Positions 205-56,963 of a stretch of DNA of 64,000 nt are shown piece by piece (within the stretch, counting starts at the first letter, position 1; each line of letters begins with the position of its first letter). A program made the position numbers and the translations under genes. Origin of the DNA: an uncultured Prevotellaceae bacterium (GTDB taxonomy: Bacteria; Bacteroidota; Bacteroidia; Bacteroidales; Bacteroidaceae); NCBI GenBank assembly GCA_947166345.1, contig CAMVDU010000003.1:51549-115548 (forward strand), in the 5' to 3' direction. Below the pieces are notes generated by a model. The model did no database searches. It saw only the letters and a program-made list of their open reading frames with translations, and had not been told where the DNA came from.

Positions 205-2418
205 ATGAAACAGAAATTCGATGTGATAACAAGCACCTGCGTTCCCCTGCCTTTGGAGAACGTAGATACCGACCAGATTATTCCTGCCCGCTTCCTGAAG
301 GCTACCGACAAGGAGGGCTTTGGCGACAACCTCTTCCGTGACTGGCGCTATCGTCCCGATGGAAGCGTGGTCGAGGATTTCGTCCTCAACGACCCAAAAT
401 ATGGCGGTTGCATTCTCGTTGCTGGCAAGAACTTCGGCTCTGGCTCCTCGCGCGAACATGCTGCCTGGGCCATTGCGGGCTACGGTTTCCGTGTGGTCAT
501 CAGCTCGTTCTTTGCCGATATCCACAAGAACAACGAACTCAACAACTTCGTACTGCCCGTTCAGGTGAGCGAGGAATTCCTCGCGGAACTCTTCCAAAGT
601 ATTCAGAATGATCCAAGTACTCAGGTTAAAGTCGATCTCCCCAACCAGACGGTTACCAACCTCTCTACGGGGCGCTCCGAACACTTCGATATCAATGGCT
701 ATAAGAAACATTGTCTGATGAATGGTCTCGACGACATCGACTTCCTGGTACAGAATCAAGAAAAGACGATAGCATGGGAACAGAGGACCCCCTCCATCTC
801 CCCCTGTTTAGGGGGAATGTTTGTAGCCTCCCCTAAACAGGGGAGGTTGGTGGGGTCTCCTTTCGTCGAGATTCTCGACTCTACGCTGCGTGACGGTGAG
901 CAGACCAATGGTGTGTCGTTCCTGCCTCACGAGAAGCTGGTCATCGCTCGCAAACTGTTGTCCAACCTCAACGTTGATCGCATTGAGGTGGGGTCGGCCC
1001 GTGTCTCGGAAGGTGAGAGTGAAGCCGTCAGGATGATCTGTCGCTATGCTCGTCAGATTGACCGTCTGGATAGGGTAGAGGTGTTGGGCTTCGTTGACGG
1101 CGGAAAGTCCGTTGACTGGATTGCCGACTGTGGCGGACAGGTGATCAACCTCTTGGCAAAGGGCTCGTTGAAACATTGCGAGCAACAGTTGCACAAGACC
1201 CCCGAGGAGCACATCAGCGACATTCTTCGTGAGGTGGACTATGCCCATCAGCGGGGACTCTCCGTCAACCTCTATCTTGAAGACTGGTCGAACGGCATGA
1301 AGGACTCGCCGGAATATGTCTATCAGCTGATGGATGCGCTGGCATCAGGGAGTCCGGTAGGAAACTCTACACTCTACACTCTACACTCTACACTAATCAA
1401 GCGCTTCATGCTCCCCGACACGCTGGGTGTGATGAATCCTCTGCAGGTGGTGGAGTATTTCCGAAAGATGGTGAAACGCTATCCCGACGTGCATTTCGAC
1501 TTCCACGCCCACAACGACTACGACCTGGCCGTCTCTAATTCGCTGGCAGCGGTGCTGAGTGGTGCCAAAGGTCTTCACGTCACCGTCAACGGTCTGGGTG
1601 AGCGCTGTGGTAATGCGCCTCTGGCATCCGTTCAGGCCATCCTGAAGGACCAGTTCCACGCCAAGACCAATATCGTGGAGAGTCAGTTGAACGACCTCTC
1701 GCGCATGGTGGAGAGCTTCAGCGGCATCGCTATTGCCCCCAACCAGCCCATCGTTGGCGACAATGTGTTTACGCAGGTGGCTGGCGTGCATGCCGACGGC
1801 GACTCCAAGAACAATCTCTATTACAACGACCTGGTGCCCGAACGTTTTGGTCGCAAGCGCGAGTATGCCTTGGGAAAGACCTCGGGCAAGGCCAATATCC
1901 TGAGGAATCTGGAGGAGCTGGGTCTGGAACTGACGCCAGAGCAGACCCGTCGTGTGACAGAGCGTATCATCGAGTTGGGCGACAAAAAAGAGATAGTTAC
2001 CCAGGAGGACCTGCCCTATATCGTCAGCGACGTGTTGAAACATGATACCCCCGACGACAAGGTACGACTGGTGGGCTACGTGGTCTCTACGGCCTATGGT
2101 CTGAAGCCTGGTGCCAATATCAAGGTCGAGATCAACGGCAAGCATTTCGAGGGCAGCGCTGTGGGTGACGGTCAGTATGATGCCTTTGTGAAGGCCCTTC
2201 GCCATATCTACAAGAAGCATCTGAACCGCACCTTCCCCATCCTCGTCAACTACGCTGTGACCATCCCTCCTGGTGGTCGTACCGACGCCTTGGTGCAGAC
2301 GGTCATCACTTGGCGCAACGACGATGGCAAGATTCTCCGCACACGAGCCCTCGATGCCGACCAGACCGAGGCTGCCATCAAGGCCACCATCAAGATGCTC
2401 AATATCATCGAGTCGTAA
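205..2418 (+). CDS. leuD-leuA: Fused LeuD (3-isopropylmalate dehydratase small subunit) and alpha-isopropylmalate/citramalate synthase family protein
   Basis: Single 737-aa ORF. N-terminal LeuD (PLENVDTDQIIPARFLK, GKNFGSGSSREHAAWAI), C-terminal LeuA-type synthase (EILDSTLRDGEQTNGVSF, FHAHNDYDLAVSNSLAAV) with regulatory domain; linker lies on a palindromic repeat. Confidence 0.88.
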   Translation: MKQKFDVITSTCVPLPLENVDTDQIIPARFLKATDKEGFGDNLFRDWRYRPDGSVVEDFVLNDPKYGGCILVAGKNFGSGSSREHAAWAIAGYGFRVVISSFFADIHKNNELNNFVLPVQVSEEFLAELFQSIQNDPSTQVKVDLPNQTVTNLSTGRSEHFDINGYKKHCLMNGLDDIDFLVQNQEKTIAWEQRTPSISPCLGGMFVASPKQGRLVGSPFVEILDSTLRDGEQTNGVSFLPHEKLVIARKLLSNLNVDRIEVGSARVSEGESEAVRMICRYARQIDRLDRVEVLGFVDGGKSVDWIADCGGQVINLLAKGSLKHCEQQLHKTPEEHISDILREVDYAHQRGLSVNLYLEDWSNGMKDSPEYVYQLMDALASGSPVGNSTLYTLHSTLIKRFMLPDTLGVMNPLQVVEYFRKMVKRYPDVHFDFHAHNDYDLAVSNSLAAVLSGAKGLHVTVNGLGERCGNAPLASVQAILKDQFHAKTNIVESQLNDLSRMVESFSGIAIAPNQPIVGDNVFTQVAGVHADGDSKNNLYYNDLVPERFGRKREYALGKTSGKANILRNLEELGLELTPEQTRRVTERIIELGDKKEIVTQEDLPYIVSDVLKHDTPDDKVRLVGYVVSTAYGLKPGANIKVEINGKHFEGSAVGDGQYDAFVKALRHIYKKHLNRTFPILVNYAVTIPPGGRTDALVQTVITWRNDDGKILRTRALDADQTEAAIKATIKMLNIIES
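787..856. repeat. Imperfect inverted repeat encoding the LeuD-LeuA linker; core arms CCCCTGTTTAGGGG / CCCCTAAACAGGGG
   Basis: Perfect 14-nt core arms at 801-814 and 830-843, extended by imperfect outer arms (ACCCCCTCCATCT.. / ..AGGTTGGTGGGGT). Confidence 0.85.
1364..1394 (+). repeat. In-frame heptamer tandem repeat (ACTCTAC)x4+ACT inside leuA
   Basis: Sequence actctacactctacactctacactctacact, translated GNSTLYTLHSTL. Confidence 0.95.
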
Positions 2419-4810: not shown

Positions 4811-6799
4811 ATGTACACGAAAGAACAGTTAGAAAAGATGGACATACCCCAGCTCATGACCATTGCCAGCGAACTGGGTGTTAAAGTGTCTCAGAACGAC
4901 AAACTCGAGAACGTCATCTACGACATCCTCGACAAGGCCGCTGAGACAATGGCTGCCGGCGATTCTACGGCCAAGCGCAAGCGTACCCGCATCGCCAAGA
5001 AGGATACTGACCGCGTCTATTCGGTGAAGGGAAAGGACGGCGAGAACTTCGACGTGAAGGGCCAGAAGAAGCCCGTTGAGGCTCCCTCGCTCTTTGCCGA
5101 CCCCGTGGAGACGCCTGCTGAGCCTGCTGAAGAGAAACCCGTGGAGAAGACCACCAAGCGTGGACGTCCCAAGAAGAGCGAAGCTGCTAAGGAAGAGAAG
5201 CCCGCTGCTGCTGAGGCTGCTGCAGAAACACCTGCTGAAGTTCCTGCTGAGGCCGCTCCCGCACCCAAGCGTCGTGGTCGCAAGTCGAAGGCAGAGCTGG
5301 CTGCTGAAGCCGCTGCTGCCGCAGAAAACAATACCGTTAATGAAGCTCCACAGGACATCGCCGTTCCTGAGGCCTTGGACAACGAGACCGCAGGCAACGA
5401 AGGTCCCGATGCCGAGATGCTCGAGCAGCTGCAGGAACACATGACCCAGCACTATGCTGGCGAACAGCCTGTAGAAGGCGATTACGACGATGACGTGTGG
5501 GAAGGTGATCCAGGCGACGGCACCGACTTCATCACCGTGGTCGATCTGCCCATCGAAGACCAAGCTGCCATTCCCACGCTCGACATCTTCGACCGTCCCG
5601 TGGTGCAGCATTCAGAGGCTGCCTTCCAGCCCGTTGCCACACAGGCTGCTGCCGACAAGCATGCAGACCGTTACGACTTTGCCGACCTCATCACGGCCAA
5701 CGGCGTGCTCGAAGTGCTGCAGGACGGCTATGGCTTCCTGCGTTCCAGCGACTACAACTACCTGTCGTCGCCCGACGATGTCTATGTCACTACCCAGCAG
5801 ATCAAGAAATACGGTCTGAAGACAGGCGACGTGGTGGAGTGCACCGTGCGTCCTCCTCACGAGAACGAGAAGTATTTCGCCCTCTCTACGGTCAACCTCA
5901 TCAACGGTCGTCAGCCCTCGGAAGTGCGCGACCGCGTGTCATTCGAACACCTCACGCCGCTGTTCCCTGAAGAGAAGTTCAACCTCTGTGGCGACCCTGC
6001 CACCACCAATCCCTCTACGCGCATCGTCGATCTATTTGCTCCCATTGGTAAAGGTCAGCGCGCCCTCATCGTGGCACAGCCCAAGACCGGTAAGACCATC
6101 CTCATGAAGGATATTGCCAACGCTATTGCTGCCAACCACCCCGAGGCCTACATCATGATGCTGCTCATCGACGAGCGTCCCGAGGAGGTCACCGACATGA
6201 GCCGCACCGTCAATGCTGAGGTCATCGCCTCGACCTTCGACGAGCCTGCCGACCGTCACGTGAAGATTGCCGGCATCGTGCTGGAGAAGGCCAAGCGCAT
6301 GGTGGAATGCGGTCACGACGTGGTCATCTTCCTCGACTCCATCACCCGTCTGGCACGCGCCTACAACACCGTTAGCCCAGCCTCTGGTAAGGTGCTCACT
6401 GGTGGTGTCGATGCCAACGCTCTGCAGAAGCCCAAGCGCTTCTTCGGAGCTGCCCGTAACATCGAGGGTGGGGGATCGCTCACCATCATCGCCACAGCCC
6501 TCGTCGATACCGGTTCCAAGATGGACGAGGTCATCTTCGAGGAGTTCAAGGGCACTGGTAACTCTGAGATACAGCTCGACCGCATGCTCTCCAACAAGCG
6601 CATCTTCCCGTCGCTCAACCTCGTGCAGTCATCAACCCGTCGCGACGACCTGCTGCAGGATCAGACCACGCTCAACCGCATGTGGATTGTCCGCAAGTTC
6701 ATCAGCGAGATGAACCCCATCGAGGCCATGAACACCCTGCGCGACCGTTTGGTGCAGAGCCGCAACAACGAGGAGTTCCTCATGTCGATGAACGGCTGA
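4811..6799 (+). CDS. rho: Transcription termination factor Rho with long N-terminal Ala/Glu/Lys-rich low-complexity insertion
   Basis: C-terminal Rho ATPase ([128 protein letters not shown]). Confidence 0.97.
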
Positions 6800-6857: not shown

Positions 6858-6884
6858 GTGGACACCTTCACGCACAAAATGAGA

Positions 6885-7068
6885 CATTGTGACGTGACTT
6901 TGTGACATAAGGTGTTCTCAGGTCTGCATGCGCCCAGATTCTGCTATAGAGTATATAGTATTATTAATATTATTATAATTAAATTATATTATATTAACAC
7001 ATCGCTGCCTCTTTTCTGCCGTTCAGCAATTCGCGGAGGTGCTTATGTCACAAAGTCACGTCACAATG
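6885..7068. repeat. Perfect 27-bp inverted repeat (6885-6911 / 7042-7068) flanking a 130-nt AT-rich spacer
   Basis: cattgtgacgtgactttgtgacataag ... cttatgtcacaaagtcacgtcacaatg. Confidence 0.95.
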
Positions 7069-7091
7069 ACACAAAATGGGTGTCCAGCACC

Positions 7092-7201
7092 GAGACGCTC
7101 TTTGCATAGCACCGAGACGCTCCTTGGTGACCAAGGGGTATGACGGTGGTGACCACCGAGACGCTCCTTGCACACCGCCGAGACGCTCCTTGGTGAGGGC
7201 G
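7092..7201. repeat. Tandem array of five 22-nt units (consensus GAGACGCTCCTTGGTGACCAAG)
   Basis: Units start at 7092, 7114, 7136 (degenerate), 7158, 7180; exact 22-nt spacing. Confidence 0.93.
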
Positions 7202-7254: not shown

Positions 7255-8586
7255 TTAGAAGAACAGGGCTCTTTCTACCCAGTAGCAGAGGATGCCGGAG
7301 AGGTAGCCCACGAAGACGATCCAGGTGATTTTCTTCATGTACCAGCCGAAGGTGATCTTCTCCAAGCCCATGACGACGACGCCTGCGGCAGAGCCGATGA
7401 TGAGCATGGAACCGCCCACGCCGGCACAGTAGGCCAGCAGTTGCCAGAAGATGCCATCGACGGCCATTGCACCTGCATCGGCCACGGGATACATGCCCAT
7501 GCAGCCTGCCACGAGGGGCACGTTGTCGACGATGCTCGACAGGATGCCGATGATGCCGTTGATGAGGTAGTAGTTGCCCGAGAAGGTGTCGTTGAGCCCT
7601 TGTCCCATGAGGGTGAGCACGCCTACTTCCTGCAGTACGGCGACGGCCATGAGGATGCCGAGGAAGAACATGATGGTGGAGAGGTCGATGCGCGAGAGGA
7701 TGTCGCTGACGCGCTTGGCCATCGTGTCGTCCTCAGAGGTGTTGTGGTGGAAGATCTCGGTGACGGTCCACAGCACGCCCAGCACCAGCAGGATGCCCAT
7801 GAACGGGGGCAGGTGTGTGATGGTCTTGAAGATGGGCACGAAGACGAGTCCGCCCACGCCCAGCCAGAAGATGATGTCGCGCTGTATCTTGGTGAACTGG
7901 CTGACCTCGGCTGCTGGCAGGTTCTGTGCTTTGTCGAACTTGCCGTTGAGTTGCAGGCTGAGGATGAAGGCTGGGATGACCATCGATACGAGCGAGGGAA
8001 CGAAAATCTCGGTCAGCACGCCCTGTGTGGTGATGACGCCCTTGATCCACAGCATGATGGTGGTGACGTCGCCGATGGGCGAGAAGGCTCCTCCCGAGTT
8101 GGCCGAGATAATGACGAGGGCGGCATAGATGAGTCGGTCCTCACGGTTCTGTACCAGCTTGCGCAGCACCATGATCATGACGATGGACGTGGTCAGGTTG
8201 TCGAGGATGGCCGACAGGAAGAAGGTCATGAAGGCCACGCGCCACAGCAGCTTGCGCTTGGAGCGCGTCTTCAGGGTGTCGCGCACAAAGTTGAAACCGC
8301 CGTTGGTATCTACAATCTCGACAATGGTCATAGCACCCATCAGGAAGAACAGTGTGCCGCCGGCATCGCCCAGATGGTGCTCGATGACTTCGGCAATGTG
8401 GTGCACCACGCTACTGCCTTCAATCATGGGGTAGTAGCTGCCTGGGTTGACCATCAGCAGCGTCCAGCAGCCTACGCACATCAGCAGGGCAATGGCTGCC
8501 TTGTTCACTTTCGTCAGACTCTCAAGGGCTATGCACAGATAGCCTGTGACGAATACCACAACAATACAGATCGTTAGTACGGACAT
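7255..8586 (-). CDS. nhaD: NhaD-type sodium:proton antiporter
   Basis: 443-aa polytopic protein; FFLMGAMTIVEIVDTNGGFNFV, LDNLTTSIVMIMVLRKL, SANSGGAFSPIGDVTTIMLWIKG. Confidence 0.9.
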   Translation of the reverse strand: MSVLTICIVVVFVTGYLCIALESLTKVNKAAIALLMCVGCWTLLMVNPGSYYPMIEGSSVVHHIAEVIEHHLGDAGGTLFFLMGAMTIVEIVDTNGGFNFVRDTLKTRSKRKLLWRVAFMTFFLSAILDNLTTSIVMIMVLRKLVQNREDRLIYAALVIISANSGGAFSPIGDVTTIMLWIKGVITTQGVLTEIFVPSLVSMVIPAFILSLQLNGKFDKAQNLPAAEVSQFTKIQRDIIFWLGVGGLVFVPIFKTITHLPPFMGILLVLGVLWTVTEIFHHNTSEDDTMAKRVSDILSRIDLSTIMFFLGILMAVAVLQEVGVLTLMGQGLNDTFSGNYYLINGIIGILSSIVDNVPLVAGCMGMYPVADAGAMAVDGIFWQLLAYCAGVGGSMLIIGSAAGVVVMGLEKITFGWYMKKITWIVFVGYLSGILCYWVERALFF

Positions 8587-8600
8587 GGCTCTTTTTTAGG

Positions 8601-8645
8601 AGTTAAAGAAGTTAAAGAAGTTAAAGAAGTTCAAGAGTTCAAGGG
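8601..8645 (+). repeat. Nonamer tandem island (AGTTAAAGA)n abutting the MFS gene stop codon
   Basis: agttaaaga x3, agttcaaga, gttcaaggg. Confidence 0.92.
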
Positions 8646-16112: not shown

Positions 16113-17327
16113 ATGAAGAAAGTTTACTTGACACTTGCAGCCCTTGCGGTGCTCAGCACCCACGCTGCGACAAACGATTCTATCGATGGACGCTACTACC
16201 GCCTTTTTGCGCCTGTGACGTTCTACCACGATGTGGCACAGGAACAGCTTGCTCTGACCGCTAACCGGCAAAAAGACGATATAGACAATGCCATTGAGCG
16301 GGCATTGGTGCATGTTTACCTGAACCGTCCCGACCTTGTGAAGGTGACAGAAACGGAACAGCAGGCATCAGGTACCCTGCGACAGGACATTATCGAGAAA
16401 CCCGTGGCTGAGGTGGCCGATCTGGTGGACCAGGCAGAACCTATCCCCGATGAGCCTGTGATGGAAACGGTGGTCGTCGAGGTGCAGAAGCCCAACTTCT
16501 GGAAATACAAGGGCGACGGCAGTCTGCAGTTCATGCAGAACTATGTCAGCGACAACTGGTATAAAGGTGGCGAAAGCTACTATTCGGCTGTGGCAAGTCT
16601 GACGCTCGAGGCCAACTACGACAACAAGTCGAAGTTTAAGTGGGAGAATAAACTGGAGATGAAACTGGGCTTCCAGACATCGCGTGCCGACTCGGTTCAC
16701 AAGTTCAAGACCAACGAAGACCTGTTGCGTTATACTGGAAAGGTGGGCCTTCAGGCTGCCAAGAACTGGTACTATACGCTGCAGATGCTGGCCTATACGC
16801 AGTTTGCCCAGGGCTTCAAGGCCAATGATATCCGTACCTACTCCGACTTCCTGTCGCCTCTGACGGTGAGCATCGGTCTTGGTATGGACTACAAGGTGTC
16901 GTGGTTGAACAAGAAGCTTACGGGAACTATCAATATGTCGCCCCTGGCCGTCAACTACAAATATGTGGGACGCTCTTCGTTCAGAAAGAAAAACGACCCG
17001 ACAGTTGAAGAGTTCGATTGGTTCCCCTCACGCTATGGTATCGATCAGGACAAGCACCACAAGACCGACTTCGGTTCGCAGTTTACTGCTTCCTTGACGT
17101 GGGTGGTCAACGATGTGCTGACGTGGAAGACGCGTCTCTACGGCTTCACCAGCTACCACCGTGCAGAAATGGAGTGGGAGAATACCTTCACGCTGAAAGT
17201 GTCGAAGTTCATATCCGCCAACCTGTTTCTCTTCCCCCGTTTCGACGATTCCAACAAACGCGACAAGGACCTGGGTTTCTGGCAGTTCAAGGAATACTCG
17301 TCGCTGGGATTCTCGTATAATTTCTAA
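16113..17327 (+). CDS. DUF3078-like outer membrane protein
   Basis: Signal peptide MKKVYLTLAALAVLSTHA; WKYKGDGSLQFMQNYVSDNWYKGGESYYSAVASLTLEANYDNKSKFKWENKLEMKLGFQTS. Confidence 0.85.
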   Translation: MKKVYLTLAALAVLSTHAATNDSIDGRYYRLFAPVTFYHDVAQEQLALTANRQKDDIDNAIERALVHVYLNRPDLVKVTETEQQASGTLRQDIIEKPVAEVADLVDQAEPIPDEPVMETVVVEVQKPNFWKYKGDGSLQFMQNYVSDNWYKGGESYYSAVASLTLEANYDNKSKFKWENKLEMKLGFQTSRADSVHKFKTNEDLLRYTGKVGLQAAKNWYYTLQMLAYTQFAQGFKANDIRTYSDFLSPLTVSIGLGMDYKVSWLNKKLTGTINMSPLAVNYKYVGRSSFRKKNDPTVEEFDWFPSRYGIDQDKHHKTDFGSQFTASLTWVVNDVLTWKTRLYGFTSYHRAEMEWENTFTLKVSKFISANLFLFPRFDDSNKRDKDLGFWQFKEYSSLGFSYNF

Positions 17328-17382
17328 AGGAGTTAAGAAGTTAGAGAAGTTAAAGAAGTTAACGAAGTTAACGAAGTTGAAA
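17328..17382 (+). repeat. Nonamer tandem island (AAGTTAAAG/AAGTTAACG)n after the DUF3078 stop codon
   Basis: aagttagag aagttaaag aagttaacg aagttaacg aagttgaaa. Confidence 0.92.
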
Positions 17383-26756: not shown

Positions 26757-26866
26757 GAGACGCTCCTTGCATCGCGCCGAGACGCTCCTTGGTGAGCAAG
26801 GTGACGCTCGGTGGTGACCAAGGAGACGCTCCGTGGACACCAAGGAGACGCTGCTTGGTATCCCCA
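26757..26866. repeat. Tandem array of five 22-nt units, same family as 7092-7201
   Basis: Units at 26757, 26779, 26801, 26823, 26845; consensus GAGACGCTCCTTGGTGACCAAG. Confidence 0.94.
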
Positions 26867-50706: not shown

Positions 50707-50816
50707 CCGATACGGAAAACAGTACTTCCTGCGTCAGAAAACGCTCTTTTCTGCGTCAGAAAACATTATTTTCCGACGCAGAAAATACTTTTTTCTGACG
50801 TTGAAAAAAAACTTGG
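50707..50816. repeat. Tandem array of five 22-nt units (consensus CTGCGTCAGAAAACnnTnTTTT)
   Basis: Units at 50707, 50729, 50751, 50773, 50795; each carries TTTTCTG/CAGAAAA arms. Confidence 0.9.
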
Positions 50817-50950: not shown

Positions 50951-50994
<44 letters not shown>

Positions 50995-56920: not shown

Positions 56921-56963
56921 AGTGAATAGTGAATAGTGAATAGTGAATAATTTGCTACCGCCG
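56921..56963 (-). repeat. Composite head+heptamer element, copy 5: (AGTGAAT)x4 + AATTTGCTACCGCCG
   Basis: agtgaat x4 then aatttgctaccgccg, directly after rarA. Confidence 0.93.

Follow-up and report, generated by a model that had tools for sequence, protein, structure and literature searches.

Repeats spaced about 22 bp apart and bound cooperatively by one protein occur in plasmid iterons and in the 22-bp transposase sites of MuA and TnsB. The CGTC-tagged REPs, reported in Bacteroidetes among other phyla, have a stem of 8-9 bp, a loop of 4-5 nt and a CCA-like tail of about 3 nt; head-to-head dimers predominate, head-to-tail arrangements are negligible and groups are rare, and these repeats lack flanking RAYTs and have no known mobilising enzyme (Di Nocera et al. 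2013, PMC3733652). BrickBuilt of Porphyromonas gingivalis is a 23-nt minisatellite MITE of 1 to 22.8 units, with a long leader and tail and IS5-like GAGACCTTTGCA ends, that is dispersed in about 19 copies and was reported to be transcribed (Klein et al. 2015, PMC4596501). A REPIN consists of two inverted REPs beside a dedicated RAYT, and its replicating unit is a higher-order palindrome rather than the single repeat (Bertels and Rainey 2011, PMC3116915). A search of the literature open without subscription found no description of a named 22-bp or 22-nt Prevotella repeat family.

The array described here lies in a window of 64,000 nucleotides, the whole stretch of DNA analysed, which belongs to a 2.28 Mb draft genome (G000) that is 82% complete. 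Five units begin at 7092, 7114, 7136, 7158 and 7180. The exact 22-nt step, reported in an earlier note made from the window alone, was borne out by the sequence, by a lag scan in which all periods from 10 to 69 nt were tried and 22 was picked at this array, and by dinucleotide shuffles, in which the 22-mer at up to three mismatches was found 0 times as against 4 in the window. The units abut, so there are no unique spacers and the array is not a CRISPR, as the same note had said. TRF did not report this array and did report the sister array (26779-26859, period 22). The array occupies the intergenic stretch where rho, which ends at 6799, and a gene for a nhaD-like antiporter (7255-8586, minus strand) converge with their 3' ends; that it was described as lying downstream of rho is incidental, since the neighbours vary among copies. 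The features in the window were as follows.

7087-7195, plus strand: whole element, 109 bp, as delimited by similarity to sister copies (G000:C3:58635-58743, 85% identity, query 1-109, no net gap; sister flanks unrelated)
7092-7113, plus strand: unit 1, GAGACGCTCTTTGCATAGCACC, a TTGCATNGCRCC variant typical of unit 1 elsewhere in the family
7114-7135, plus strand: unit 2, GAGACGCTCCTTGGTGACCAAG, identical to the consensus, with an exact duplicate on another contig (G000:C8:37242-37263)
7136-7157, plus strand: unit 3, GGGTATGACGGTGGTGACCACC, in the middle and of low identity, with variant forms at the equal position in loci L002, L004 and L016
7158-7179, plus strand: unit 4, GAGACGCTCCTTGCACACCGCC, read from the sequence and the sister-copy alignment
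7180-7201, plus strand: unit 5, within which the sister-copy similarity ends at about 7195
26757-26866, plus strand: another five-unit copy of this element, flanked by tRNA-Lys and by a small ORF on the plus strand (G000:C3:78300-78407, 97% to the 109-nt query)
50715-50807, plus strand: third array with a 22-nt period, the CGTC/GACG core kept with other arms (TTTTCTG CGT CAGAAAA)

Unit 2 matched the consensus at 22 of 22 positions, while units 1, 3, 4 and 5 matched at 15, 12, 16 and 18. The cyclic dyad that had been read from the consensus (8-nt arm, ACG, 8-nt arm, TGA) holds for the consensus, single units being imperfect. In linear form the unit consists of CGTC, a 7-nt arm, 3 nt, a second 7-nt arm and 1 nt, which gives 22 nt. 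The array at 50715-50807 is a relative of the element beside rho by architecture and is unrelated to it in sequence. A second dispersed repeat, MITE-like with an AT-rich middle, abutted the rho array at 6880-7073; its inverted arms (6880-6911 and 7042-7073, 32 nt) were 94% complementary, and the same repeat and the array were fused at the identical junction in L012 (318 bp, 87%).

In common with the CGTC-tagged REPs, the element consists of short CGTC (GACG)-tagged palindromes with stems of ~8 nt that are intergenic, heterogeneous and species-specific and are dispersed in tens of copies, with the tag at the palindrome end (PMC3733652). It differs from them in its loop of 3 nt, its tail of 1 nt, its 22-nt unit and its head-to-tail arrangement in exact register. 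Since it breaks the loop, tail and dimer rules, the element was not filed as a member of that group; it can be viewed as an abundant Bacteroidales version of the CGTC-tagged palindromes, with a sharply defined replicating module and a clock-like 22-bp register. BrickBuilt is the nearest named Bacteroidales element, and the two share a spacerless tandem repeat of similar period that is intergenic, dispersed and species-restricted. However, BrickBuilt has no CGTC dyad, whereas the element has a period of 22, ~5 units and neither GAGACCTTTGCA-type ends nor a leader and tail of that kind. Its ends were GCAAC...TTGGT or CTCGAGCAA[G/C]GAG. One copy, L016, was a palindromic foldback form with CTCGAGCAA[G/C]GAGCGTC at both ends, and the other copies were less symmetric.

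The genome comparison drew on stretches around matches and on sample stretches. In the own genome, the 22-mer at up to three mismatches gave 30 matches versus 0 for a reversed control, and a degenerate form gave 206 versus 19 in the control. The 100 degenerate-form matches listed fell into about 39 clusters, a few of the single-match clusters being possibly due to chance. The period is thus not unique to this locus, and the view that the array represents a dispersed, re-copied element of fixed period was upheld. The 109-nt element had 46 matches with identities of 72-97% and zero net length change in all, some of these matches being two readings of one palindromic locus. Copies aligned with one another over 108-109 bp with no net gap. 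Between pairs of loci the similarity typically ended at about 108-119 bp and the flanks differed, although some copies were alike over longer stretches, and the aligned copies matched unit to unit with no internal gaps. Head-to-tail arrays of 4-6 units were the rule; five units were present in 17 of 25 arrays and six units in 6, in line with the suggestion that the copy number clusters at five. Positions 3-7 of the unit were GACGC in most units of these 25 arrays (A 0.83, C 0.80, G 0.79, C 0.94).

The unit identity was 0.665 at the equal ordinal position across arrays, 0.606 within one array and 0.575 at other positions in other arrays. The position effect was 0.089, versus 0.000 +/- 0.003 when the unit order was shuffled, or ~27 SD above the null, the same-position figure being somewhat inflated because alignment and orientation were chosen for fit to one copy. 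Whole-module copying also stands on the near-identical modules found amid unrelated surroundings, which are free of any choice of orientation. Because same-position units are more alike than the units of one array, spreading involves all five units together, and the replicating entity is the complete module of ~110 bp. The periodic re-copying that had been proposed was therefore right in that the element is copied, but what is copied is the whole module and not the single unit. Likewise, the low-identity middle unit had been taken as a sign of re-copying; its presence at the equal place in L002, L004 and L016 marks it instead as an ancestral variant, an inherited marker. The element resembles REPINs in that a higher-order structure replicates (PMC3116915), and differs from them in having five head-to-tail units and an own genome with no match to a Y1 transposase. 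The five-unit replicating module also distinguishes it from the CGTC-tagged REPs.

The genes around the copies and their orientations differed from copy to copy. Examination by eye did not recognise a target-site duplication, and for the empty-site comparison at the rho/nhaD and tRNA-Lys copies, gene order was not conserved in the nearest available species. Several copies lay at or near contig ends (G000 C39, C52, C53, C54, C11 and C6); such copies probably break the assembly, so that the copy number is a minimum, and the element may explain some of the assembly breaks. A further 22-nt subfamily in the own genome, with arms AGAAAGTG and CACTTTCT, reads AGAAAGTG ACG CACTTTCT and often adjoins the GAGACGC element, the resulting composites reaching about 235 bp (flanks of L004, L016, L018, L023, L029 and L031).

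When the units in the own genome were located one by one, 59 of 61 neighbour distances were exact multiples of 22 and the other two were 88+1. Gapped re-alignment of 27 loci gave 16 that were gap-free, many of them with 14-29 substitutions (37 in one poor alignment); the gapped remainder consisted mostly of short, off-target or flipped-loop alignments. The spacing is almost free of indels while the sequence drifts by 3-28%, and the register is constrained.

As a probe of related genomes, the 22-mer was negative for the family itself: the exact family was found in none of 298 other sampled congeners, some of them close by nhaD, lone matches at three mismatches excepted, while the architecture recurred in some congeners. 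The exact two-unit pattern was not found in the named GTDB genomes. An origin from phage or plasmid was rejected, as no phage or plasmid record matched the element. In the congener G016 (complete genome, 3.17 Mb), the pattern TGASKCA-N15-TGASKCA gave 87 matches on one strand versus 0 in the control, and these arrays, with TGACGCA-type cores every 22 nt, are a fully diverged counterpart. The modal size among the 77 G016 arrays examined was again five (30 arrays), most others having 4-7 units. Nearly all were intergenic; one two-unit chain inside an ORF is probably due to chance, and the other ORF overlaps involved short frames. GCGGC-cored arrays were present in G004 (10 matches, control 0). 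Among the named GTDB genomes, at least 80 stretches contained three TGACGCA at 22-nt spacing, and 24 of those listed were Prevotellaceae by record title, about ten of the 24 being from the single MAG RUG14668.

When every period was allowed in a lag scan, 22 came out on top in 8 of 11 peaks for G016 (200 kb scanned), in 8 of 40 for other congeners (673 kb) and in 0 of 19 for other families of the order (593 kb). Across the genus as a whole, lags of 21 and 22 were equally common, partly on account of 7-nt microsatellites, and the predominance of 22 is thus confined to some species. Intergenic microsatellites of 7 to 9 nt were frequent in the window (1364-1394, 8601-8636, 17325-17378, 50951-50994 and 56921-56949), for example TCTCAAC x6.

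On balance we favour reading the array as one of the copies of a mobile repeat that is short (~110 bp), intergenic and non-autonomous and that is composed of five head-to-tail 22-bp dyad-symmetric units. The element is dispersed and copied as a complete module. Probably the dyad units are bound or recognised by a protein that acts on several adjacent sites; with the sites about two helical turns apart, this putative protein would keep the units in strict register. The reader would most likely be a trans-acting transposase or recombinase, which would make the element REP- or MITE-like and selfish rather than a carrier of host function. The species-specific sequence, typical of mobile repeats, lends support to this reading, as do the foldback form of L016 and the intergenic placement of the G016 arrays irrespective of gene orientation. 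Iterons and the MuA and TnsB sites provide a model for how the spacing could be conserved; unlike those sites, the element lies in chromosomal intergenic DNA, where no linked initiator or DDE transposase has so far been recognised among the neighbours seen, short of a systematic search. More tentatively, and with some doubt, the architecture rather than the sequence may be what several Prevotella species have in common, namely about five dyad sites with a GACGC/CGTC-type core in a 22-bp register, read by a putative undescribed protein or recombinase that needs the two-turn spacing, the arms being replaced between species and the period, core and module size being kept. The complete G016 genome, in which more than 70 arrays were examined, makes it directly testable what copies the element and what reads the register.

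The mobile reading is weakened by the lack of a recognised target-site duplication or empty site and of a Y1 match in the 82%-complete own genome. An array of binding sites used by the host would also account just as well for a register kept while the sequence drifts. The main rival is accordingly that a resident regulatory or chromosome-organising protein binds TGACGCA-like dyads every two turns and that selection holds the register, which we regard as unlikely, though it deserves more weight than the other alternatives. Several observations are consistent with it, 1) indels are near absent despite much substitution, 2) a dyad-symmetric consensus whose stem shows no covariation is expected of operator-like sites and not of hairpins, 3) a family in G016, though fully diverged, has this period and core and 4) the placement is intergenic. 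However, near-identical modules with unrelated flanks and a patchy occurrence in the genus look like mobility, and the spread of whole modules and the species-restricted sequence are left unexplained. The arrays had no preference for promoter regions, and the genes flanking those of G016 (35 codirectional, 18 convergent and 13 divergent) were without a clear orientation preference. Moreover, departure from a uniform distribution along the chromosome was not significant for the G016 loci listed (KS p 0.05), and there is no candidate binding protein.

Compared with host binding, it is less probable again that the arrays are REP or REPIN elements moved by a RAYT-type Y1-HUH transposase that recognises single-stranded hairpins. 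The unit does resemble the CGTC-tagged REPs, but those are themselves not flanked by RAYTs (PMC3733652). The earlier note had pointed to RAYT/Y1-HUH genes as a check, and PF01797 (Y1) gave 0 matches in the 82%-complete own genome. G016 has three Y1 genes (L294, L299 (L171) and L303), of which two are near-identical (about 98-99%) and one is broken, and 22-nt arrays lie no more than about 1 kb from each of the three, on both sides in one case. The copies are not independent, however; they share flanks, and the Y1 gene is bounded directly by a different palindromic repeat of about 111 bp (CCCACGT...ACGTGGG), so that they amount to about one association. The Y1 genes of other congeners were mostly without such arrays, and RAYT-flanking as a general rule was rejected because it fails there. 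For the mobile-repeat reading, the link between Y1 genes and arrays is a lead only. The 111-bp palindrome also occurred without a Y1 gene in L173, L177, L178, L208 and L220. Another palindrome, AAATTCTCTAGAGAATTT, adjoined a short array of the own genome (L028) and also lay near Y1 genes in L365 (G038) and L367 (G077).

The absence of stem covariation, which counts against a hairpin-recognising transposase, also bears on the suggestion that the array is a structured RNA or terminator kept for its fold, which is now very improbable. Single arrays can fold well, as did the rho array (RNA z -4.3, plus strand), the L216 array of G016 (RNA z -10.3) and the array with AT-rich arms at 50715-50807, which forms one long hairpin (DNA z -7.0), and the rho array does lie between convergent genes; such folding follows from the palindromic consensus. 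In 417 G016 units and 127 units of the own genome, no consistent stem covariation beyond column composition was found, a few isolated columns excepted. Arrays did not outdo strings of units drawn at random within each genome in their folding, the mean z being 0.00 +/- 0.14 for G016 and 0.34 +/- 0.23 for the own genome, and a global mirror-image hairpin was no better, with 0.55 pairs at the best centre versus 0.54 in unit-permuted arrays. Hairpin pairing is not conserved across the family, a statement that holds for the family and not for each copy, as a few G016 arrays (e.g. L216) are real long hairpins. The idea that the array is maintained as a folded structure was consequently abandoned, and the lack of stem covariation is a further difference from the CGTC-tagged REPs. 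A terminator role was rejected because gene orientation is random around the arrays, and among the Rfam families nothing matched except a tRNA. Ordinary slippage giving a functionless minisatellite can be set aside, for although tandem repeats are common in these genomes, it is already contradicted by whole-module copying, with unit numbers near five, homology of same-position units across loci and about 39 loci in one family.

In rumen Prevotellaceae MAGs (L058, L081, L107, L118, L124 and others), units with a GATGGCATATTGGTGCCTGATA-like core preceded the TGACGCA units in the same 22-nt register. Outside the Prevotellaceae, multi-locus 22-nt TGACGCA arrays were present in Treponema sp. RUI307 (L065, L100, L113, L116, L132 and L134) and in Nonlabens (L078, L084, L091 and L120), and their sequence was more uniform.
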